A DNA stretch of 64,000 nt, taken from Clostridiaceae bacterium. GTDB lineage: Bacteria; Bacillota; Clostridia; Lachnospirales; Lachnospiraceae. Positions 17,945 to 51,309 of this stretch are shown one piece after another. Each line of letters begins with the position of its first letter. The stretch's first letter is position 1. Below the pieces are notes generated by a model, which worked only from the letters and a program-made list of their open reading frames with translations, searched no databases and was not told the origin of the DNA. The translations under genes were made by a program, and so were the position numbers. The DNA lies in contig QXWR01000004.1 of NCBI GenBank assembly GCA_009911065.1, forward strand, positions 62,001 to 126,000, read 5' to 3'.

Positions 17945-18799
17945 ATGGGGAAAATAATGAAAGATATAATCCATGCAAATGGAATAGATATTGGAATTTA
18001 TACACAGGATTTCGAAAATGAATTTATTTCATTGACGGATATTGCCCGGTATAAGAGTGATGATCCAACGGCGGTTATTCAAAACTGGATGAGAAATCGG
18101 GATGTTATAGAATTTATTGGACTATGGGAAAAGTTACATAATTCAGATTTTAAACCCCTCGAATTCGAGGGGTTTAAAAAGCAGGCAGGAGCAAACGCCT
18201 TTACAATGTCGCCAAAAAAATGGATAGAAGCGACAGATGCTATTGGTATTGTTTCAAAAGCAGGACGCTACGGAGGAACATATGCTCACAGCGATATCGC
18301 CATGTCTTTTGCAACTTGGATTTCTCCAGAGTTTCAGTTATATATTATGAAAGACTATAGGCGTTTAAAGACAGACGAAAACAGTCGGTTATCTTTGAAT
18401 TGGAATTTGAACAGAGAAATTTCTAAGCTGAATTACAGGATACATACAGATGCAATTAAAGAGACGCTGATTCCACCAGAATTAACGCCTGTACAGGTGG
18501 CATATAGCTATGCTAATGAAGCAGATTTGTTGAATGTCGTTTTATTTGGAAAGACGGCGAAGCAATGGAAAGAAGAAAATCCAACAGTGAGAGGAAATAT
18601 GAGAGATGAAGGGACGCTGAATCAATTACTGGTACTTGCAAATCTGGAAAGTTATAATGCAGTTTTGATTAATCAGGGTAAAAGTCAAAAAGAGCGAATG
18701 GAATTGCTTCGGCAATTGGCGGTACAGCAGTTACAGACATTAGAAACAGTAAGTTTAGATAACTTGTCGAAATTAGGAATAGAAATGGAAAAGAAATAA
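17945..18799 (+). CDS. KilA-N domain protein
   Basis: A 284-residue protein behind an AGGAGG site. The N-terminal ~130 residues form a KilA-N domain: EFISLTDIARYKSDDPTAVI, NWMRNRDVIEFIGLWEKLHN, SPKKWIEATDAIGIVSKAGRYGGTYAHSDIAMSFATWISPEF. KilA-N is a DNA-binding fold common in phage and large DNA-virus proteins, and in some chromosomal genes of gut Clostridia. The C-terminal half (residues 150-284) is helical, with a leucine-rich end that may dimerise. The gene is clearly more AT-rich than its neighbours, which suggests transfer. A 32-bp perfect palindrome lies inside the KilA-N coding region and encodes DFKPLEFEGFK. No phage genes flank it. Function is unknown. Confidence 0.85.
   Translation: MGKIMKDIIHANGIDIGIYTQDFENEFISLTDIARYKSDDPTAVIQNWMRNRDVIEFIGLWEKLHNSDFKPLEFEGFKKQAGANAFTMSPKKWIEATDAIGIVSKAGRYGGTYAHSDIAMSFATWISPEFQLYIMKDYRRLKTDENSRLSLNWNLNREISKLNYRIHTDAIKETLIPPELTPVQVAYSYANEADLLNVVLFGKTAKQWKEENPTVRGNMRDEGTLNQLLVLANLESYNAVLINQGKSQKERMELLRQLAVQQLQTLETVSLDNLSKLGIEMEKK
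18148..18179. repeat. 32-bp perfect palindrome inside the KilA-N gene
   Basis: Sixteen bases on either side of the axis between 18163 and 18164 are exactly complementary, with no spacer. The core is CCCCTCGAATTCGAGGGG, flanked by TTTTAAA and TTTAAAA. As RNA it would form a strong hairpin, and as DNA a symmetric protein site or a cruciform. Confidence 0.95.
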
Positions 18800-19908: not shown

Positions 19909-20994
19909 TTACTTATCAAAAGTATGGTTTTCATCTATATCGGAAGCTTCTGCTTTCAAACCTTCCGGTTTTTCCAAGGTAAAGGCAGCTATGGATTTTA
20001 ATTTCCTTTTGGCTTTTATTTTCGCCAAAGGTAAAATGATGATTCCGATTATAATTCCAAGAACCACAAAGGTTGGCAAGTGAGATAAAAGCCATACCAG
20101 AAAGTCCACAAGGCTGTTGCTTACACTTTCCAGGTTTCGGATAAATCCTTTTTGAATACGAGCGCCAACGGAATCAGGAACGGTGGGGGTGAATACACCA
20201 ACTTCCTGAATGTAAATATGTATGGTACTGTAATTTACCTGATTGTCAAAGGTTCGAAGCTGGGATTCAAAGCCTTCCAGCTGGTAGCGGATTTCAGAAA
20301 GGCGTTCTTCCAGGGCAATGACTGCTTCCAGTGTATCTGCCTTTTCTAACAGAGCCCAAAGCCGTTCTTGTTCAATGGTTAATGATTTTTTTCGGCTTTC
20401 AATGTCCGTGTATTGCAGCGTTACGTCTTGGACATTTTCAGAACGGCTGGTAATATTGCTCTGCTCACCCATTTGGGATACAAATTGATCCAGATAAGTA
20501 GAAGGAATGCGGACCATCAAATAGGCATTCCGCCTCCGCTCCAGGCCGGAAGAAATACTTGCGCCGCTAATGTCCGACTGCTCAATATAACCGCCTTTTT
20601 CTAAAACAGACTGACGGATGTTTTCCATCAGGGAATCAAAGCCTGTGGTTTCCGTATTCAGGCTGACTGTGCGAATCAGCTTTCGGTCCAGAGCTGATTG
20701 GGAAGATGACTGGTTTTGCAGCTCCGGCGGGATCATGGGTTTGGCGGAAGTATTGATATTGGATTCTTCATAAAAGTTTCCCTCTTCTTCATAAAGGGCT
20801 TCGTCTTGCTCATAAAAGCCGCCATCCATCCACACATTATCCGCTGCCGCTGCTGGCGCTTCATCAAAGGCAGCGGCAGTTTCAGCAGTAACAGCAGCAG
20901 ACTTGGAGCCGCCTCCATTACAGGCGGTCATGGTTCCGGCAGAAAGAAGCAACAGGAAAAGATAAGTCGTCAGGTAATGAAGTTTTCTTTTCAT
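19909..20994 (-). CDS. DUF4349 lipoprotein
   Basis: A 361-residue secreted lipoprotein. The signal peptide ends in a lipobox (LLLLSAGTMTAC, Cys at about residue 25). An acidic, low-complexity segment precedes the conserved DUF4349 core. That core begins near RKLIRTVSLNTETTGFDSLMENI and includes YLMVRIPSTYLDQFVSQMGE, VTLQYTDIESRKKSLTIEQERLW and the coiled-coil LEAVIALEERLSEIRYQLEGFESQL. A transmembrane helix near residue 310 (LPTFVVLGIIIGIIILPLAKI) is followed by a basic cytoplasmic tail, so it may be anchored at both ends. It is the last gene of a minus-strand group with the exosortase and the VIT/vWA protein. The function of DUF4349 is unknown. Confidence 0.85.
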   Translation of the reverse strand: MKRKLHYLTTYLFLLLLSAGTMTACNGGGSKSAAVTAETAAAFDEAPAAAADNVWMDGGFYEQDEALYEEEGNFYEESNINTSAKPMIPPELQNQSSSQSALDRKLIRTVSLNTETTGFDSLMENIRQSVLEKGGYIEQSDISGASISSGLERRRNAYLMVRIPSTYLDQFVSQMGEQSNITSRSENVQDVTLQYTDIESRKKSLTIEQERLWALLEKADTLEAVIALEERLSEIRYQLEGFESQLRTFDNQVNYSTIHIYIQEVGVFTPTVPDSVGARIQKGFIRNLESVSNSLVDFLVWLLSHLPTFVVLGIIIGIIILPLAKIKAKRKLKSIAAFTLEKPEGLKAEASDIDENHTFDK

Positions 20995-21070
20995 AATTTT
21001 GTACCTCCCTTTGATATTCTGTATACGATACGTTTTGAGGGAGGCAAATTTATGGTGGAATGAATGATTT

Positions 21071-21847
21071 TTATTTATATTTTTTCAGCTTGTGGAAGAA
21101 CAGCCAAATCAAACCTACCGTACCAAGAATAATCATACAAGGCAAAGCCGTAAGGCCGGCATAATGAAGGAAAGCCGGTGAACTGGCTTTATAAGGACGG
21201 TTTAAAAGCGGTATTCCAAGAAGGATTGCAAAATACCAAAATGCAGGAAGCCACCACCATCTGGCAGATCTAGGAATGGAATCGGATGTTTTTTTCAGAC
21301 AGGCTTCTGTGGTGGCGTAAAGGGCAAGAAGTGAGGTAAAGTAGATTATGGTTCCAATCATCGTATGCAGGTTTTCAGCTGTCAGCCATTGGTTTAAGGT
21401 TCTAAAGGCCCCGCTCTTAAAGAGAAAGAGCGGGAGCCAGATGGAGATGAGAACCCGGAAGCCGTTGACCAGGATGGTAAACAGGTAGGATAAAGCCAAA
21501 GAACCTGTAAGCCAAAGGAAACGTTTCCAGTGGGTTTTCATCCGATGAAGGAAGGAAAAAATCAGCATGGCGGCGCAAATGATCATAAACCGGACTCCAG
21601 AGCAGGATGGGGCAAGGATAAACTGAAAGGAATGGTTTATGAATCCTATGGGGCTTACATACTCAAATGGGATTCCAGATAAAATTCCAATCCACCAGGC
21701 AGTGGGAGCCAGTATCCAGAGAAGCTGGTCGCTGTCTGCTGTGGCGTAAAAATATTTAATTCCCAACAAAAGAACCACACTTGCCAAATAAAATTTTCCA
21801 TTTTCAGCCAGGGATTTTTTAAAACAATACATACCATTACCATCCAT
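21071..21847 (-). CDS. xrtK: Exosortase (XrtK-like)
   Basis: A 258-residue polytopic membrane protein with about seven hydrophobic segments. The three conserved exosortase residues are present in order: Cys82 in LAPSCSGVRF, Arg131 in NGFRVLISIW and His161 in ENLHTMIGTI. Exosortases are transpeptidase-like membrane enzymes that process proteins with PEP-CTERM-type tails; they are common in Gram-negatives and rare in Firmicutes. I recall an exosortase K family in this phylum, but the subfamily is not proven here. The start at 21847 lies behind AGGAGGT. It begins 5 bases after the VIT/vWA gene stop, and that protein ends in a matching sorting tail. The pair is therefore probably a dedicated enzyme and substrate. 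Confidence 0.82.
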   Translation of the reverse strand: MDGNGMYCFKKSLAENGKFYLASVVLLLGIKYFYATADSDQLLWILAPTAWWIGILSGIPFEYVSPIGFINHSFQFILAPSCSGVRFMIICAAMLIFSFLHRMKTHWKRFLWLTGSLALSYLFTILVNGFRVLISIWLPLFLFKSGAFRTLNQWLTAENLHTMIGTIIYFTSLLALYATTEACLKKTSDSIPRSARWWWLPAFWYFAILLGIPLLNRPYKASSPAFLHYAGLTALPCMIILGTVGLIWLFFHKLKKYK

Positions 21848-21852
21848 GGAAG

Positions 21853-23889
21853 TTACCTCCTCTTTCGCCGGTAATGGAGAAATCCTGCGCCTCCAATCCA
21901 AAGAATTACCAGAAGGAGAAGCATTCCGCCTGGTTCAGACCCAGTAGTATACCCTCCCACAGAAAGGCTGGATACATGGAGAGGGAGGACAGACGGCTGA
22001 TTTACGTCCATGCTGTCTGCATTTGGGTTCCGAATGGTTTCTGTTACTGCCACAAAGGACGTGTAAGGAGTCATCATGCTGTATTTTAGGCCCAGGGAAG
22101 TAACCAGTTTCTTTGCAAGCTTGGAATCGGTTCCATTGCCGCCATAATCTGTCAGCTGCTCAATTCGTTTTCTTGCCCACAGATACCGGATGGCATTGTT
22201 TGCCTGGGAAGACGGGATCTCAGCTACAGAAATTTCTTTTACATAATCCTCATTGCCGGTTTTTCCTGTAATTTTAATGGTTCCGTTTGTGTCGCCGCGC
22301 CATTTTCCAAACAGGATGATGGGACGTTTGGCAAACAGGGTGGGAAGAACTGTAGGTTCCAGATCATAGGCGTCAAATCCCTGGAAGGAAACGTTAATGT
22401 CACTTAACAGGGGCGCCTCTACATAGGTACGGAAACGATTTGCCGTATCTTTGGCGTCTTTTTCATCTGTTACCACAAAGGCTTCCCCCTGACCGGCTTT
22501 TGCCATGCCGTCAATCAGATAGCGATTGACCGAATCCCCGATGCCAAACGAGAAAAAGCTGGTGTCAGCCAGATTAGCGTTAATGATTTGAAAAATCTCT
22601 TTTTCCCCGGAAATATATCCGTCTGTGATGGCAATTACATTTCGGGAAAATCCTTCGGTCCTGGGAATTAAGAGGGCTTCCCTAAGGGCAGGAGCAAGCT
22701 CAGTTCCTCCGCCTCCGCTTTCCTCGTCAATTAAATCTATGGCCCTTTTTATATGGTCCGGAGTGGCAGACACGGATTCTGGCGACATTTTTAAAGAAGC
22801 ATTGGAAAACAACAAAAGGTTAAAGCGGTCATCTGGTTTTAAGCCGGAGATTAAGTCCCGGATTAAGTCCTTTGCTGTGTCTAAAGGATAACCATACATG
22901 GAACCAGATACATCCAGCACAAAAATGTATTCCCTGGGAGGAAGCTGGTCGGGAGTGTAGCGCTCCGGCGGCTGAACCATTAACATAAAATAGTTTTCCT
23001 CTTCATCCGAGTCCAGCATCAGGCCGCAGCTGACATCTTGACCAGTTAATTTGTAATCCAGGATAAAATCCCGGTTTCCTGCATAGTCAGCCGGGTTTAG
23101 AAGAGTGACTTTTGCCTGATCTTCCCGTTCTTTTTCCACCTGGATTTTATGGGATTTGCAGGAAATATCTGTAATCGGTACACCAGTGGAAAGATTGACG
23201 GTTATATTGTACTTTTCATCGGGAGTTCTGCCTTCCTGGAAATAGGGGCTGGCTACCCAGTCGTCTGGGTCTTTTGCTTCGGACTCCGGACCGTCTTTCG
23301 TATCTTGGGGAGAGCTGGCATAACGGGGACCTACAACCGTGGGAAAGACAAACTCATAGACGCCTTCTGTGGAGGCGACCATTTCTGTATAGTGCAGTTC
23401 AATGCGTATGGTGTCACCAGGCATAATGTTTGCCACATCCATGGAAAAAACATTGGGCCGTTGCTGCTCCAGCAGGGAAGCGCTTTTTCCTTCGCTTTTT
23501 GCTTCCTCAAACGTCTTTTTTGCCTCCTCCCGTTCTTGAATCTTGGCTGTGATGACCTGATCTCCAATTTGCATTTTCATCCCGTGAATGGACACGCTGT
23601 CTGAGGCTGGAAAAATGTAGCTGGCGTTGATGGGATTGTTTCCTTCATTGGCATAAGTCTGCGTCACAAAAGTTTCTGCTATGACACCGCTTATGGTGGT
23701 GGACACATCCGTTTCTTTTAACGGAAGGAAATCTGTGTCAGGGTCAGCTCCCTCAATAAAAAAGTAGGGAGCCAAAATTTTTTCTTCCTCTTCTTCAGGG
23801 GTCTCATCGCCGTAGACGGCAAAGGAGCAGGTGAAAGACAGAAGAACAAGAGCCATACACAGCAGCTTTCCATGTTTTTTTCCTTTCAT
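21853..23889 (-). CDS. VIT and von Willebrand A domain surface protein with exosortase sorting tail
   Basis: A 678-residue exported protein. A signal peptide covers residues 1-27. An inter-alpha-trypsin inhibitor (VIT) domain spans about 55-190 (VIAETFVTQTYANEGNNPINASYIFP, AKKTFEEAKSEGKSASLLEQ). A von Willebrand A domain starts near 320 with an intact MIDAS motif DVSGS (Asp326). The end is tripartite: a SEPGG motif near residue 651, a hydrophobic stretch (MLLLLVILWIGGAGFL) and a basic tail HYRRKRR. This is the layout of PEP-CTERM-type tails cut by exosortases. It is transcribed just ahead of the exosortase gene. VIT/vWA proteins mediate adhesion in other systems; the role here is not known. 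Confidence 0.88.
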   Translation of the reverse strand: MKGKKHGKLLCMALVLLSFTCSFAVYGDETPEEEEEKILAPYFFIEGADPDTDFLPLKETDVSTTISGVIAETFVTQTYANEGNNPINASYIFPASDSVSIHGMKMQIGDQVITAKIQEREEAKKTFEEAKSEGKSASLLEQQRPNVFSMDVANIMPGDTIRIELHYTEMVASTEGVYEFVFPTVVGPRYASSPQDTKDGPESEAKDPDDWVASPYFQEGRTPDEKYNITVNLSTGVPITDISCKSHKIQVEKEREDQAKVTLLNPADYAGNRDFILDYKLTGQDVSCGLMLDSDEEENYFMLMVQPPERYTPDQLPPREYIFVLDVSGSMYGYPLDTAKDLIRDLISGLKPDDRFNLLLFSNASLKMSPESVSATPDHIKRAIDLIDEESGGGGTELAPALREALLIPRTEGFSRNVIAITDGYISGEKEIFQIINANLADTSFFSFGIGDSVNRYLIDGMAKAGQGEAFVVTDEKDAKDTANRFRTYVEAPLLSDINVSFQGFDAYDLEPTVLPTLFAKRPIILFGKWRGDTNGTIKITGKTGNEDYVKEISVAEIPSSQANNAIRYLWARKRIEQLTDYGGNGTDSKLAKKLVTSLGLKYSMMTPYTSFVAVTETIRNPNADSMDVNQPSVLPLHVSSLSVGGYTTGSEPGGMLLLLVILWIGGAGFLHYRRKRR

Positions 23890-38929: not shown

Positions 38930-41137
38930 TTAAATTTCGTTGGTCTCTTCAAAACGATATTGGAGAGATTCGTAGTCCATGGATGGCAGAGGAAGAGGGA
39001 TTCCTGCATACATAAGTACTGCGCCAGTGTAAATTTGGCCTGTCAGGGTCTCTTTGTATTTTTTCTGCGGGTCCAATCCTCTTAAATGAAGGAGTGTGAT
39101 CGGGGGATTGGGGTATTTGCGCAACACCACGCCACACACAAGAACTTTGGCCTTGTCTTTGGAGACAAAGGACCAAACCACTGCATTGTTCTCATCTTTG
39201 GGAGCGGTTATGCGGTAATAGTCTCCATTTTGAATCATAGGTTCGATTTCTTTAAACTGAGTGATCAGATCCGATGCAATCTCTTTTTCTTCTTTGGTCA
39301 TATGCTCCAAATCCAGTTCATAGCCAAAAGTGCCGGACATAGCTACAACCGCACGGGTATTCATGTCAGTGGTGCGGCCTGTCTGGTGGTTAGGACATAC
39401 GCTCACATGGGCGCCCATAGTGCTTATGGGGTAAATAAAGGAGGTACCATATTGAATCTCCAGCCGGTCAATGGCATCTGTGTTGTCACTGCACCAGATT
39501 TGGGGAGAATAATACAGCATGCCTGCATCAAAACGGCCGCCTCCCCCAGCACAGGTTTCAAGAAGCAGATCCGGATACCGGGTAATTAACTGTTCCATCA
39601 TGTCATAAACTCCCAGCATATGACGGTGAAGGACTTCTCCCTGCCGGTCTTCTGGAAGACTTTGGGAAAATACATTACCAACAGCCCGGTTTACATCCCA
39701 TTTTACATATTCCACATGACAGGAATCTAAAACCTGAAAGATTTGTTCCATCACATAATCCCGTACTTCCTTTCGGGATACATCCAGATTTAGCTGTCCC
39801 CGGCTGGTCATGGGGTTCCGGCCAGGAACTTTCAGGCACCAGTCTGGATGGAGACGGTACAAATCACTGTCTTCGGAAATCATTTCCGGCTCAATCCAAA
39901 TACCAAATTTCATGCCAAGATTATGAATCTTTTGTACTAAGGCAGGAAGGCCACCATGGATTTTCTTTTCATTCACATACCAGTCTCCCAAACCGGAAAT
40001 GTCGTCATCCCGTTTGCCAAACCAGCCGTCATCCAAAACAAACAGTTCAATGCCTATTTCCTTGGCAGCCTTGGCAATGCCATACAATTTCTTTTCGTCA
40101 AATTGAAAATAGGTTGCTTCCCAGTTGTTTACCAGCACCGGACGGTGGCGATTTACATAACTGCTCCGAATCAAATGATTGCGGAACGCATCATGGAAAT
40201 GATGGGAGATCTGTTCCAACCCTTTTCCTGACCAGGTCATTACTGCCTCCGGGGTGGTAAAGCTTTCTCCAGGGCTTAGACGGAAGGAAAAGTTGCTTGG
40301 ATGGATTCCCATGACAAGCCGGGTCTGCTCGGCCTGATCAAGTTCTACCTGACATTCAAAATTGCCGCTGTATACAAACACAATGCCATAACAGTCGCCG
40401 TAATCTTCGGTTGCTCTGCGGTCGCAGATAAGAACCGCTGGATTGTGGTGATGGCTGGACATGCCCCGCTTACTTTCAATGGACTGGATGCCATGGGTAA
40501 TGGGGCGGCGTTCTGTCTGACGTTCCATATTGTGACGCCCGTAAAAATGGATGAGATCCATGGAGCGCTTTGGAAAATCTAGTTCCAGGGACATGGCTTT
40601 TTTCAGAGCAATCCGGGAAGTTCCATGGTTGGTGATTTCCACGGCCCGGGTGATTACATCACATTGAGGAAATACGCCGTAAAGAAGTTTTACCTCCACG
40701 CCGCTAGGCTCATCCTTCAAAAGAATTTCCAATGTGGCGGCATCGGACTCCTGGGTGGTAAAAAGGGAAGGCAGCCCAGGAAGGCGGTATTTGCCGGGAA
40801 GAATCTGATGGGAGCAGTATTTCAGCTGAAGGCAGTTGCTGCCATCTGTGTGACGAATCTCAATTCCCTGGATTCGGTAGTCGCCATTGCCTTCGGCTGT
40901 GTATTCCTGGGGAAGCACATCCAAAGAAAACCGACGGTCATCTTCTGCCTCGTAGGGGTTGCCGGAAAATCCCCGGTCCAGATTTACAATTCGATGAACA
41001 ACCTCCGTATCTCCTAAATCAGCGCCGTAATATAAATGAACCAGGGTATCGTAACGCTCGATCTGCATCTGATACATGGTAGAACAAGTGCGAAGCGTAA
41101 ATACACGAGATTGGGGATTGAATTTGATTGGTTCCAT
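38930..41137 (-). CDS. Alpha-galactosidase, glycoside hydrolase family 36
   Basis: A 735-residue intracellular enzyme that removes terminal alpha-galactose from raffinose-family sugars or melibiose. The N-terminal beta-sandwich is followed by the catalytic barrel. It includes NNWEATYFQFDEKKLYGIAKAAKEIGIELFVLDDGWFG, the nucleophile Asp in YVKWDVNRAVG and the acid/base Asp in WCSDNTDAIDRLEIQYG. No signal peptide is seen, so substrate must be imported, in keeping with the ABC importer encoded upstream. The ATG at 41137 has GGAGG ahead of it. It is the last gene of the minus-strand transporter operon. A second GH36 enzyme lies at the other end of the locus. Confidence 0.95.
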   Translation of the reverse strand: MEPIKFNPQSRVFTLRTCSTMYQMQIERYDTLVHLYYGADLGDTEVVHRIVNLDRGFSGNPYEAEDDRRFSLDVLPQEYTAEGNGDYRIQGIEIRHTDGSNCLQLKYCSHQILPGKYRLPGLPSLFTTQESDAATLEILLKDEPSGVEVKLLYGVFPQCDVITRAVEITNHGTSRIALKKAMSLELDFPKRSMDLIHFYGRHNMERQTERRPITHGIQSIESKRGMSSHHHNPAVLICDRRATEDYGDCYGIVFVYSGNFECQVELDQAEQTRLVMGIHPSNFSFRLSPGESFTTPEAVMTWSGKGLEQISHHFHDAFRNHLIRSSYVNRHRPVLVNNWEATYFQFDEKKLYGIAKAAKEIGIELFVLDDGWFGKRDDDISGLGDWYVNEKKIHGGLPALVQKIHNLGMKFGIWIEPEMISEDSDLYRLHPDWCLKVPGRNPMTSRGQLNLDVSRKEVRDYVMEQIFQVLDSCHVEYVKWDVNRAVGNVFSQSLPEDRQGEVLHRHMLGVYDMMEQLITRYPDLLLETCAGGGGRFDAGMLYYSPQIWCSDNTDAIDRLEIQYGTSFIYPISTMGAHVSVCPNHQTGRTTDMNTRAVVAMSGTFGYELDLEHMTKEEKEIASDLITQFKEIEPMIQNGDYYRITAPKDENNAVVWSFVSKDKAKVLVCGVVLRKYPNPPITLLHLRGLDPQKKYKETLTGQIYTGAVLMYAGIPLPLPSMDYESLQYRFEETNEI

Positions 41138-47200: not shown

Positions 47201-49435
47201 TTATTCTGCAGTCAATACATAGATTTTGGACCAGAAGTCTGTGCAGATTTCAAAGCCCTCTTCTGGCTGTCCGCTGCAGGGCTGTCCGGCAGAGGCATCG
47301 GTGGTAATGAGACCAACGCTCATCAGTTCGTCGCCCATATGGATTTTTCCAGTCTTGTCCACCAGGTAGGACAGATTGGGATTCAGGCCCTTTAAGTGAA
47401 GTCTCCGGTACTCGCAGTTTACATCATTGAGAGTCTTATAATAGCCGATAACCGCGGTTTTCTGATCATCGGACACGGCCATCCATGCGGCGATATTGCT
47501 TTCAAACGGACTTAAAAGCCTGTAGAACGTACCAAACTGAAGCACAGACCGATATTGTTTCATAAACCGAATCTGCTCCCGGACCATCTTTCTTTCCTCG
47601 TCCGTCAGTTTCTGTAAATCCAATTCATAGCCAAATGCGCCAAAATAGGCCACGTTTCCCCGGGTAGCCAGAGGCGTGTTGCGGAACAGCTGGTGGTTTG
47701 GCACAGCCGATACATGCGCGCCCATACTGACAATGGGATAGCCAAAGCTGGTTCCATATTGAATTTTGATTCGCTCCGCCGCATCGGAATCGTCGCTGGT
47801 CCAGCACTGGGGCGCATAGTAAAGCATACCTGCATCAAACCGGGCGCCGCCGGAAGCACAAGATTCAAACAGGATGTGAGGGAAATTCTTTATAAACCGT
47901 TCATACAAGGAATAAAGTCCCAGTATATACCGATGGAATACCTCTCCTTGTTGGGCTGGCGCCAAAGCCAGAGAATAACACTCTGTAATGGAACGGTTCA
48001 TGTCCCATTTAATATAGGAAACTTTGGACTCAGACAAGATCTTTGCAACCATGTCGTAGATGCAGTCCACTACCTCTGGCCGGGAAAAATCCAACACATA
48101 TTGATGTCTTCCATGGCAGGATTTACGTCCGGGAGTCTGTAAAATCCATTCTGGATGCGCCCGGTACAGATCGCTGTCCATATTTACCATCTCTAATTCC
48201 ACCCAAAGGCCGAATTTTAAACCTAACGCCTCAATTTTTTCGGATAATCCTTTAATTCCGTTGGGCAGGCGTTCGGTGTTGGCATACCAGTCTCCCAGTC
48301 CGGCATGATCGTCATTCCGCTCTCCAAACCATCCGTCGTCCAGAACAAACAGCTCCACTCCGTCTTCTTTGGCGGCTCTGGCAATTTCCACCAGCCGGTC
48401 CTCATCAAAATCAAAATAAGTCGCTTCCCAGTTGTTGAGAAGAACCGGACGGACCTTGTCTCTCCACTGTCCTCTGGCAAGACGGCTGCGGTACAGGCGG
48501 TGGAAGGTCTGGCTCATGCCGTTTAATCCCTGGTCAGAGTAGACCATCACCGCTTCCGGAGTCTGGAATTTCTCACCAGGTTTTAAGTTCCAGGTAAAAC
48601 CAAAAGGATTGATACCTAACATAATGCGGGTTACATTATAAGTATCTACTTCGGCCTGTGCCAGGAAATTGCCGCTGTATATGAGAGAAAAGCCAAGAAC
48701 TTCACCTTGGAACTCGTCGGCAGTGGGACGCTTTAGCACAATAAAAGGATTGTGGGTATGGCTGGAGTGGCCGCGGGTGCTGCTGACTGCCTGGATTCCC
48801 TGTTCCAGACGGCGGATTTTTACCTGGCGCTCTCTGGACCAGGCGCCGGAAAACTGAATCCAGTCATAGCTGCAGTCCGGCAAATCCAGGCTGGCGCTCA
48901 TAGCCCGTGTAAGGTCAAAGGTATCATCTGTGGGATTCTCAAACCGGGCGCTTCTGGCAATGGCTCCTTCCTGACTGAAAATCGTGTAGAGAAGAACCAG
49001 CTTTATGCCTAAAAGTTCATCCTTTAAAGTTACTTCCAGGGTGTCAGCTTCTTCGTCGGATTCGGTGTAGGTAGCTGGAAGTCCCTGCAAAGAAGGCTTT
49101 CCAGAATAAATCCGGTGGGAAAGATAAGTAAAGTTGGTAATACGGCTGCCGTCCGGCTGTAAGATTTCCATAGCAGGAAGTTTATAATCGGAAGTACCGT
49201 AAACCGGATATTCCTGTTTAATGTGTTCCAGAGAAAAGGCGTAACCTTCCGACTGATAAGAAGTCATGGGCCGGTAGCAGGTTTCCAACAGGTGGTCAAA
49301 ATCCTTCCGGTCCTGAATCCGGGAACCAAAATACAGTTGTCCCAAGTGGCCGTTGTCAAGAATTTTTATAATATAACTGATCTTGTCATTATACAGATGA
49401 AACTCTTTTGAGGTTTCGTGAAAAAGGATTGCCAT
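47201..49435 (-). CDS. Alpha-galactosidase, glycoside hydrolase family 36 (second enzyme)
   Basis: A 744-residue intracellular GH36 enzyme. The catalytic barrel includes NNWEATYFDFDEDRLVEIARAAKEDGVELFVLDDGWFGERNDD, the nucleophile Asp in YIKWDMNRSITE and the acid/base Asp in TSDDSDAAERIKIQYGTSFGYP. It is related to but clearly distinct from the first enzyme, so it is not a recent copy. It has its own upstream region: on the minus strand a TATAAT near 49471-49476, and GGAGGT before the ATG at 49435. It stands convergent with the AraC genes. The two enzymes may differ in chain length or linkage preference. Confidence 0.95.
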   Translation of the reverse strand: MAILFHETSKEFHLYNDKISYIIKILDNGHLGQLYFGSRIQDRKDFDHLLETCYRPMTSYQSEGYAFSLEHIKQEYPVYGTSDYKLPAMEILQPDGSRITNFTYLSHRIYSGKPSLQGLPATYTESDEEADTLEVTLKDELLGIKLVLLYTIFSQEGAIARSARFENPTDDTFDLTRAMSASLDLPDCSYDWIQFSGAWSRERQVKIRRLEQGIQAVSSTRGHSSHTHNPFIVLKRPTADEFQGEVLGFSLIYSGNFLAQAEVDTYNVTRIMLGINPFGFTWNLKPGEKFQTPEAVMVYSDQGLNGMSQTFHRLYRSRLARGQWRDKVRPVLLNNWEATYFDFDEDRLVEIARAAKEDGVELFVLDDGWFGERNDDHAGLGDWYANTERLPNGIKGLSEKIEALGLKFGLWVELEMVNMDSDLYRAHPEWILQTPGRKSCHGRHQYVLDFSRPEVVDCIYDMVAKILSESKVSYIKWDMNRSITECYSLALAPAQQGEVFHRYILGLYSLYERFIKNFPHILFESCASGGARFDAGMLYYAPQCWTSDDSDAAERIKIQYGTSFGYPIVSMGAHVSAVPNHQLFRNTPLATRGNVAYFGAFGYELDLQKLTDEERKMVREQIRFMKQYRSVLQFGTFYRLLSPFESNIAAWMAVSDDQKTAVIGYYKTLNDVNCEYRRLHLKGLNPNLSYLVDKTGKIHMGDELMSVGLITTDASAGQPCSGQPEEGFEICTDFWSKIYVLTAE

Positions 49436-49524: not shown

Positions 49525-51309
49525 TTAATAGCTTGTTATAAAATTTGTTTTTGGAGAAGGTGAAAGCAATCGCTGCTTCTTTAACAGGGCGAAGAAACTT
49601 TCTTCCGGCATGGGTTTTGCATAATAATAGCCCTGTACCTGATCGCATCCGATTTTGCGGAGCAGGTCAATCTGTTCCTGAGTTTCCACGCCTTCTGCCA
49701 AAAGGCCCAGTTTCAGCTTATGAGCCATGGAGACCACCTGTTCCAGAATAAGCTTTCCCTTGGCAGATACCATCATGTTTTCCATAAATTTGCGGTCTAA
49801 TTTGATTACGTCAAAAGGAGTCTCCAAAAGAATATTAAGAGAGGAGTAACCGCTTCCAAAGTCGTCCATCAAAAGGGTATAGCCTTCTTCTTTTAGCTTC
49901 AGGGCTTTCTGGCTTACCTGGTAATTGCCGGCAGTTTCCGTGATCTCCAACTCCAACAAAGATTTGGGGATGTTATTTTGTCTGATCAAATCCGAGAGTA
50001 CCTGGATGCATTCGTTGTCCTTTAAATGGATTCGGGATACATTGACGGAAACCGGACAGGGGAGGACATTTGCATCCTGACATTTTTTTATAAATAGGCA
50101 GGCTTCCCTCCAGATATAGTAATCGACTTTTTTGATAAAGCCATTTTCTTCAATAACTGGAATGAACTGGTCTGGATAAATCATTCCCCGTTCCGGATGA
50201 CTCCACCGCACCAGCGCCTCTGCTCCTATAATCTCATTTTTTGTAATGCTGTATTTGGGCTGGAGATACATTTGAAACTGTCGGTTTTCAATGGCTGTCT
50301 GCATATTTTCTTCGATAAATTTCCGGCTGTAGAGGGAATCTTTATATTGTTCTTTATAGAATGAAATATTTGTCAGTACATTTTTCTTGGCAGCTCTTCT
50401 TGCCATGTTGGTGCGGTCCTCCATCTGGCGAAGTTCCATATTCTTGTCGTCCACCCTGTAGATACCATAAGATATGCGGAGGGTTACATTTTTGAAGGTG
50501 CATATATGGGCGTCCAGCCGACGGACAAAATCCACCAGATCTTTCTTTTGATTGTATTCTGTGACGACCATAAACACATCCCCCCTAAGGTTGGCAAAGA
50601 ACTGATTTTTATGACAGAGCTGCTTTAACTGGTTCGTAATAAAATACAGGACTTCATCACCAAACTTCTCTCCGTAAAGGTCATTGATCAGTTTGAATTT
50701 GCTGATGTCAAACTGAATAAATCCAATCCCTCGTGCGGAAGAGAACAGAAGATTGTTTACGTTTTTCCGGAAGGTATGCAGCTTGCTCATGTTTAAGAGG
50801 GCATTTTTTAAATTTTGATTTTCAGGAATATCTTCCACTTCCAGGGCGCTTTCCACCATATCCTTGAGATAGGATTCCAGCATTTCTTCCAGAATTTCAA
50901 TACTGACATGAATGGCTTTGGGACATTGACGGGAAAATAGTCCTTCTTTTCGAATCACAGCCATGTCTTCTGGATTGGTTATATCTTTTCCTAAAATGTC
51001 CCTGCAATTCATACAGCCATTCATTCTTTGAGCGAAACGGCGGATAAATTCCTCTGTCTTCTGATTGCTGTAAATCTCACGGTCTCTGTCCTGAGAGTCA
51101 TAAAAGCCCATGGCAAGACCAAGTATCATTAAAGAGCTGGAAACACAGCCGCACACGCCGCCCTGGCGCATACCTCCCCCAAAGCAGGTACTGATTTTAA
51201 ATGCGGTTTTTAAATTCATCTGGAAATCATCTGCAAATGCTCCAAATAATGCCTGAGAGCAGTGGTACTGCTGTTTTAAAAGCTGTTCTGCTTTTTCTTT
51301 GTGTGTCAT
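49525..51309 (-). CDS. C_GCAxxG_C_C - degenerate GGDEF - EAL fusion protein
   Basis: A 594-residue three-part protein. Residues 1-150 match the C_GCAxxG_C_C redox family, with cysteines in YHCSQALFGAF, CFGGGMRQGGVCGCVSSS, GCMNCRDILG and RQCPKAIHVSIEIL. A GGDEF-fold domain follows (~190-320), but the signature is RGDVF instead of GGDEF, so cyclase activity is unlikely. The C-terminal EAL domain is intact: GAEALVRWSHPE, ELEITETAGNY, LLMDDFGSGYSSLNIL, IKLDRKFM and AEGVETQEQIDLLRKIGC. It should cleave cyclic di-GMP. The cysteine domain may sense metal or redox state and control that cleavage. No transmembrane segment is seen. Confidence 0.9.
   Translation of the reverse strand: MTHKEKAEQLLKQQYHCSQALFGAFADDFQMNLKTAFKISTCFGGGMRQGGVCGCVSSSLMILGLAMGFYDSQDRDREIYSNQKTEEFIRRFAQRMNGCMNCRDILGKDITNPEDMAVIRKEGLFSRQCPKAIHVSIEILEEMLESYLKDMVESALEVEDIPENQNLKNALLNMSKLHTFRKNVNNLLFSSARGIGFIQFDISKFKLINDLYGEKFGDEVLYFITNQLKQLCHKNQFFANLRGDVFMVVTEYNQKKDLVDFVRRLDAHICTFKNVTLRISYGIYRVDDKNMELRQMEDRTNMARRAAKKNVLTNISFYKEQYKDSLYSRKFIEENMQTAIENRQFQMYLQPKYSITKNEIIGAEALVRWSHPERGMIYPDQFIPVIEENGFIKKVDYYIWREACLFIKKCQDANVLPCPVSVNVSRIHLKDNECIQVLSDLIRQNNIPKSLLELEITETAGNYQVSQKALKLKEEGYTLLMDDFGSGYSSLNILLETPFDVIKLDRKFMENMMVSAKGKLILEQVVSMAHKLKLGLLAEGVETQEQIDLLRKIGCDQVQGYYYAKPMPEESFFALLKKQRLLSPSPKTNFITSY

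Follow-up and report, generated by a model that had tools for sequence, protein, structure and literature searches.

Layout of the locus

The window analysed here, a 64,000-nucleotide stretch of a Lachnospiraceae genome (Clostridiaceae bacterium, assembly GCA_009911065.1, contig QXWR01000004.1, positions 62,001 to 126,000), carries on its minus strand, head to tail, the gene of a protein with VIT and vWA domains, the gene of an exosortase of type XrtK and a gene for a DUF4349 lipoprotein-like protein (Table 1). An earlier note on this DNA had described a membrane protein with a Cys82/Arg131/His161 triad, encoded directly after a VIT/vWA gene whose 678-residue product ends in SEPGG, a hydrophobic helix and RRKRR. 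Both open reading frames and the triad are present as described, and the C-terminus of the VIT/vWA protein reads TTGSEPGGMLLLLVILWIGGAGFLHYRRKRR.

The exosortase gene starts with ATG at 21847, 5 bases past the VIT stop codon, and its AGGAGG, read directly from the sequence, lies inside the final VIT codons. The placement of this ribosome-binding site within the end of the upstream gene, together with the short gap, speaks for coupling of the two genes. An alternative exosortase frame of 276 residues would use an upstream TTG start within the VIT gene. The DUF4349 gene follows on the same strand, 76 bases downstream of the XrtK stop codon.

Table 1. Features of the exosortase locus, in positions of the window
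Feature	Positions	Strand	Description
VIT/vWA protein, probable sole substrate	21853..23889	-	678 residues; N-terminal signal sequence (by inspection); VIT 57-167; vWA ~322-480
C-terminal sorting tail	21856..21939	-	SEP = residues 651-653; predicted helix 655-677; RRKRR
Ribosome-binding site AGGAGG, VIT stop codon and 5-base gap	21848..21861	-	sequence read directly
Exosortase K, long form	21071..21847	-	258 residues; Cys82/Arg131/His161; C-terminal extension of ~60 residues
DUF4349 lipoprotein-like gene	19909..20994	-	361 residues; DUF4349 201 bits

Pairing of enzyme and target across genomes

We collected 22 loci with a long XrtK: the window, 20 more that were located through the enzyme and one (L072) that was located through its tail. 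In all 22 (16 Lachnospiraceae-type, 6 Acidobacteriota) the gene immediately upstream encodes a VIT/vWA protein, and the pairing is therefore not due to chance. A scan of public genomes for XrtK contributed 15 loci, all with a directly upstream VIT/vWA gene whose product is 50-65% identical to that of the window. Among 199 Acidobacteriota genomes, a profile search picked out seven: G608, which is the genome of locus L020, five genomes with new pairs (L058-L062), and G745. The XrtK gene of the last (L063) is cut at a contig end and its VIT gene (L116) at another, so that L063 was left out of the 22 loci and L116 out of the comparison of tails and enzymes below. L003, L007 and L030 are one locus, as are L004, L013 and L029, and each was counted once.

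Of the 20 loci with a clear start, 19 have an intergenic gap of no more than 134 bases and the remaining one (L015) has a gap of 431 bases; in 7 loci the two genes share a 4-base ATGA overlap. The frames abut in L058 and L061, where the start is unsure. No third gene is conserved with the pair: other flanking genes are common to at most 4 of the 18 loci compared (two of them repeats), mostly near relatives, in a comparison of flanks by sharing, without gene-by-gene annotation and without a search for exopolysaccharide genes elsewhere in the genome. The conserved unit thus consists of two genes, and judged by gene order the pair is tightly coupled.

The enzyme is a long-form XrtK

Searched against the exosortase models, as the earlier note had proposed, the window enzyme matches TIGR04287 (XrtK) with 111.4 bits (cut-off 55) and the general exosortase model TIGR04178 with 42.4 bits (cut-off 23); with Pfam EpsH it stays under the cut-off (21.8 versus 25.7 bits). 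C82, R131 and H161 are invariant in all 22 aligned long XrtKs, and the same Cys, Arg and His columns are kept in both short XrtKs examined. We take the three to be catalytic, as the conserved residues of exosortases. The C-terminal extension of about 60 residues, which is missing from the two short enzymes (181 and 194 residues), has its own conserved positions: P201 and Y205 are invariant in 22 of 22, and P213 is found in all 21 sequences that are readable there. Weak XrtK matches in three further genomes (G079, G415 and G373; 20-21 bits) were dropped as below the cut-off. The frames in G415 and G373 resemble another membrane protein family, and the match in G079 is interrupted by a stop.

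The probable substrate and its tail

The window VIT/vWA protein matches Pfam VIT with 122 bits and VWA_3 with 67 bits. Against TIGR03788, the model for marine proteobacterial sortase targets, it scores 462.1 bits (cut-off 551.65), which makes it a homologue of these targets and not a member. The vWA residues D326, S328, S330, T396 and D423, presumably those that usually bind metal, are invariant in 16 of 16 sequences. The folded part of the predicted model resembles inter-alpha-inhibitor heavy chain 1 (6fpy; Foldseek E 8.9e-34, TM 0.61).

The protein has the form of a PEP-CTERM-like tail, with a motif, a helix and a basic cluster at the C-terminus, and no match to the PEP-CTERM model TIGR02595 (cut-off 16 bits) at E<=1; the homologue in L016 reaches 13.6 bits, also below that cut-off. 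An E-P pair stands directly ahead of the hydrophobic stretch in 22 of 22 tails, preceded by S in 18, P in 3 and D in 1. In the predicted model of the window protein (mean predicted local distance difference test score, pLDDT, 76.4) the SEP motif lies in a low-confidence linker (623-655), which is followed by the helix at 655-677.

One enzyme and one probable substrate in most genomes

In the window genome, XrtK and the VIT domain each occur once, and the general exosortase model likewise has a single match. A profile built from 20 tails, that of the window included, finds the VIT protein as its sole significant match there (next best E 0.54), so that no further SEPGG-type tail turned up. The profile was run on 8 of the 16 pair-bearing genomes, of which 7 yielded a single significant match and G596 yielded two. 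The second G596 tail (L072) was absent from the profile and still matched at 1.9e-7, which shows that the search is able to detect relatives; it would overlook substrates whose tails differ strongly. Exactly one exosortase is found in 14 of the 16 pair-bearing genomes; in G596 there are two, each with its own adjacent VIT/vWA gene. In a sample of 299 family genomes, XrtK exceeds its cut-off in 3 and VIT is present in 3, and these are the same 3. Within the reach of the tail profile, the locus corresponds to a dedicated sorting system, worded in PMC3237569 as an enzyme with a single target per genome. The earlier note's picture of one enzyme serving one substrate is supported by the single exosortase, the single tail and the strict pairing.

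The two pairs of G596 (L072 and L008) lie on different contigs, and the second VIT protein is closest to that of L017. The system may be duplicated in this genome, or the assembly may be mixed.

Tail and enzyme are present or absent together in Acidobacteriota

VIT/vWA matches were found in 72 of the 199 Acidobacteriota genomes, and the 30 best-scoring loci, 29 of them with a complete C-terminus, were taken for comparison. In these 29, tail and adjacent enzyme occur together in 9, neither occurs in 20, and mixed cases number 0 (Fisher p 1e-7, ignoring kinship). The enzymes of the 9 tailed loci lie just downstream and comprise 6 XrtKs, already among the 22, and 3 XrtQ-like proteins. Within the 320-1179 bases downstream of the 20 tailless loci there was no match to long XrtK, XrtQ-like or class GN sortase queries; enzymes of other classes could escape these three. 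Orthologues that keep the exosortase and have lost the tail, which would have spoken against a dedicated system, were found in 0 of 22 long-XrtK loci and 0 of 29 Acidobacteriota VIT/vWA loci (six common to both sets).

The three XrtQ-like loci (L101, L102 and L103), which are close relatives, form another apparent pair: their VIT/vWA proteins end in a TTPEPETW tail, with the XrtQ-like exosortase adjacent. The enzyme of L101 scores 154 bits, short of the 270 bits that the XrtQ model requires.

A model for the cassette and its alternatives

Together, our data suggest that the two genes very probably form a dedicated cassette, in which the long XrtK would recognise and cleave the tail of the VIT/vWA protein and join the newly formed C-terminus to an envelope acceptor for display on the surface. 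At the level of sequence, this proposal draws on the pairing, the single copy, the invariant triad, the invariant E-P, the architecture of the tail and the joint absence of tail and enzyme in Acidobacteriota loci. We infer the steps from export to adhesion as follows. The VIT/vWA protein would be exported by Sec until its C-terminal helix and RRKRR stop it in the membrane, with SEP then exposed on the outer side as part of a flexible linker. The long XrtK would recognise the xEP-helix-basic tail, and Cys82, helped by Arg131 and His161, would cut at or near SEP through an acyl-enzyme at the cysteine. Covalent transfer of the new C-terminus to the acceptor would then leave an adhesion-type domain with a metal site on the surface, without the helix. 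In archaeosortase A, Cys173 belongs to the active site and cleavage is linked to the attachment of a lipid (PMC7157517); by this analogy XrtK would cleave at SEP and hand the C-terminus on to an acceptor.

Several points weigh against this proposal. The loci are related, some nearly identical, so that the counts are not independent. Sequence and fold comparison gave no significant solved-structure relative of XrtK, which keeps the triad at the sequence level, and one Acidobacteriota genome (G608) has a further exosortase elsewhere in addition to its pair. Transfer rather than mere release is suggested by analogy. An ethanolamine lipid, phosphatidylethanolamine, has been proposed as acceptor for archaeosortase (PMC7157517), and phosphatidylserine decarboxylase (PF02666) is found in 3 of 16 XrtK genomes, that of the window included, versus 14 of 64 controls, many of these genomes being metagenome assemblies. 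As PF02666 is not enriched, we rejected phosphatidylethanolamine as a general acceptor.

There is appreciable room for an enzyme that only cuts, and either releases the VIT/vWA protein to the medium or acts as a dedicated intramembrane protease in regulation, with no covalent anchoring. The genomic pairing fits this equally well, no gene for making an acceptor is conserved beside the pair, and the link to phosphatidylethanolamine synthesis is missing; yet the tail has the tripartite form of a sorting signal, and in archaeosortase A, a relative, cleavage is coupled with lipid attachment (PMC7157517). We consider a cut-only enzyme a serious contender, though the less probable one. That XrtK serves many tailed proteins and lies beside the VIT gene without any special link to it is, by comparison, extremely improbable. 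Species with PEP-CTERM proteins do often have at least 20 of them (PMC3237569), but the tail profile returns one protein in the window genome, its reach is attested by L072, and adjacency to a VIT/vWA gene is universal in the loci seen.

The earlier note had also proposed the DUF4349 lipoprotein as a partner, which would make this a three-gene system. Its gene lies close behind XrtK in the same orientation, and DUF4349 is commoner in pair genomes (12 of 15 Lachnospiraceae-type pair genomes versus 41 of 99 other family genomes; Fisher p 0.010, ignoring kinship and genome size). However, the window is the one locus where DUF4349 stands beside the pair; it was not found in the flanks of any of the 15 other loci, searched up to 6 kb (in L018 over only 114 bases downstream, in a genome with no DUF4349 anywhere). 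It is absent from 3 of the 15 Lachnospiraceae-type pair genomes, and each of the 12 distinct other XrtK genomes with a DUF4349 gene carries it on a different contig from XrtK. With adjacency limited to the window and DUF4349 common in the family, and with no third gene shared by the pair loci, the partnership is unsupported, and a three-gene system is very unlikely. Of the co-occurrence of three genes that the earlier note had envisaged, the VIT/vWA-XrtK part is strict and the DUF4349 part does not hold. We regard the protein as a common lipoprotein whose link to the pair is loose at best, and the cassette does not need it in general.

Elsewhere in the window, the minus strand encodes a GGDEF/EAL protein with an N-terminal C_GCAxxG_C_C redox domain (49525-51309) and two GH36 alpha-galactosidase-type proteins, whose genes (38930-41137 and 47201-49435) lie about 6 kb apart.

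Evolution of the cassette and its significance

The VIT/vWA tree places all 16 Lachnospiraceae-type sequences in a single group (98/100), whose neighbour is one Acidobacteriota sequence (93/95), with further Acidobacteriota sequences around them. Resolution of the XrtK tree is poor, with good support for 7 of its 21 inner branches, but the Acidobacteriota enzymes are grouped (94/96). These groupings suggest that the cassette passed between Acidobacteriota and Lachnospiraceae, with the direction resting on a long outgroup branch. The G+C content of the pair region is 0.44-0.47 versus 0.37-0.50 in its surroundings; being like its surroundings, the region gives no sign of recent transfer in the window.

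More tentatively, the long-XrtK/VIT-vWA pair may be a portable cassette that has moved between Gram-negatives of the Acidobacteriota type and Lachnospiraceae of the gut and that functions in either kind of envelope; VIT/vWA proteins would then be a family in which unrelated C-terminal sorting enzymes (also class GN sortase, rhombosortase, XrtQ-like) have repeatedly replaced one another. We regard this as possible but rather doubtful. If a portable cassette works in both envelopes, its acceptor would have to be available in both, and would not be phosphatidylethanolamine. Inter-alpha-inhibitor heavy chains are covalently linked via their C-terminus. If the portable cassette is real, C-terminal covalent attachment would be a lasting trait of VIT/vWA proteins, reminiscent of these chains of the same fold.

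On a plasmid of Pontibacter sp. G13 (L056, 4935-9629), a SusC/RagA outer-membrane protein is fused with a VIT/vWA domain that is 45% identical to that of the window, which may be a route to the surface that needs no tail. About 4 kb from this fusion lies a KilA-N gene whose product is about 50% identical to a KilA-N domain protein encoded on the plus strand of the window (17945-18799).

Exosortases are usually described as serving many substrates, and to our knowledge it is not settled what they attach proteins to. A single pair in a single-membrane bacterium is close to the simplest setting in which questions of exosortase cleavage, acceptor and recognition can be asked. The VIT/vWA family, with its sortase, rhombosortase and two types of exosortase, would also allow a direct comparison of unrelated sorting enzymes.

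Comparison with known systems

The exosortase is XrtK by sequence, and XrtK is already catalogued together with MSEP-CTERM targets (TIGR04287/TIGR04286). The two examples examined (L027 and L028) share with the window an enzyme of the same exosortase family, an adjacent target, a VIT domain in the target and an E-P before the C-terminal hydrophobic stretch. Their enzymes, however, have 181 and 194 residues and no C-terminal extension, unlike the 258-residue enzyme of the window, and their targets of 900 and 944 residues have no VWA match, in contrast to the 678-residue VIT/vWA protein. The latter has no MSEP-CTERM match at E<=1, and among its homologues only that of L062 gives a weak one (14.1 bits). 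With its longer enzyme and a VIT/vWA target outside MSEP-CTERM, the window pair does not belong to the XrtK/MSEP-CTERM system. The exosortase with VIT-domain target catalogued as XrtN (TIGR04476/TIGR04477) is similar by model name only, since neither window protein matches these models at E<=1.

In the class GN sortase system (TIGR03784/TIGR03788), here in Rhizobium (L057), a homologous VIT/vWA target is followed directly by an overlapping enzyme gene. This enzyme belongs to a family unrelated to XrtK, and the Rhizobium target scores 920 bits against TIGR03788 versus 462 for that of the window. Exchange of sorting enzymes among VIT/vWA proteins was published in 2011, reportedly by Haft and Varghese. 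VIT/vWA homologues were described there with GlyGly-CTERM, with LPXTG and an adjacent sortase, or, in Verrucomicrobium spinosum, with PEP-CTERM and an exosortase (PMC3237569). The substrate family is thus the same and alternative sorting enzymes, exosortase included, were recognised, but the section on this family names neither XrtK nor a Gram-positive.

The usual description of exosortases is as Gram-negative enzymes (for example PMC12188702), and a 2006 survey reports no PEP-CTERM protein in Firmicutes (PMC1569441). The earlier note had likewise taken them to be mainly Gram-negative and had seen in the locus a Firmicute exception. The pair is indeed present here, but Gram-positive exosortases with an adjacent target are already known from the XrtG/Firmicu-CTERM system (TIGR03110/TIGR04145), which in L. 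plantarum occurs together with two glycosyltransferases (PMC12854382). A second, different exosortase pair of this kind exists in the family of the window: in G008, the sole control genome of 64 with any exosortase match, the XrtG gene overlaps a Firmicu-CTERM gene by one base (L124, 1432-3260). Enzyme and target families both differ from those of the window; no VIT model matched in L124, and the window proteins have no TIGR03110 or TIGR04145 match at E<=1.

A search of titles and abstracts in the open literature found no paper on XrtK (the main exosortase paper of 2012, 10.1128/JB.06026-11, was outside its reach), and for exosortases in Lachnospiraceae it gave only a mention citing other work. 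Of 299 genomes sampled from the phylum, 3 have an XrtK above the cut-off: that of the window and the two with the short XrtKs beside MSEP-CTERM proteins (L027 and L028). What is new, as far as the sequences can tell, is a long-form XrtK with a VIT/vWA substrate like that of a sortase, a combination unlike the catalogued, shorter XrtK/MSEP-CTERM.

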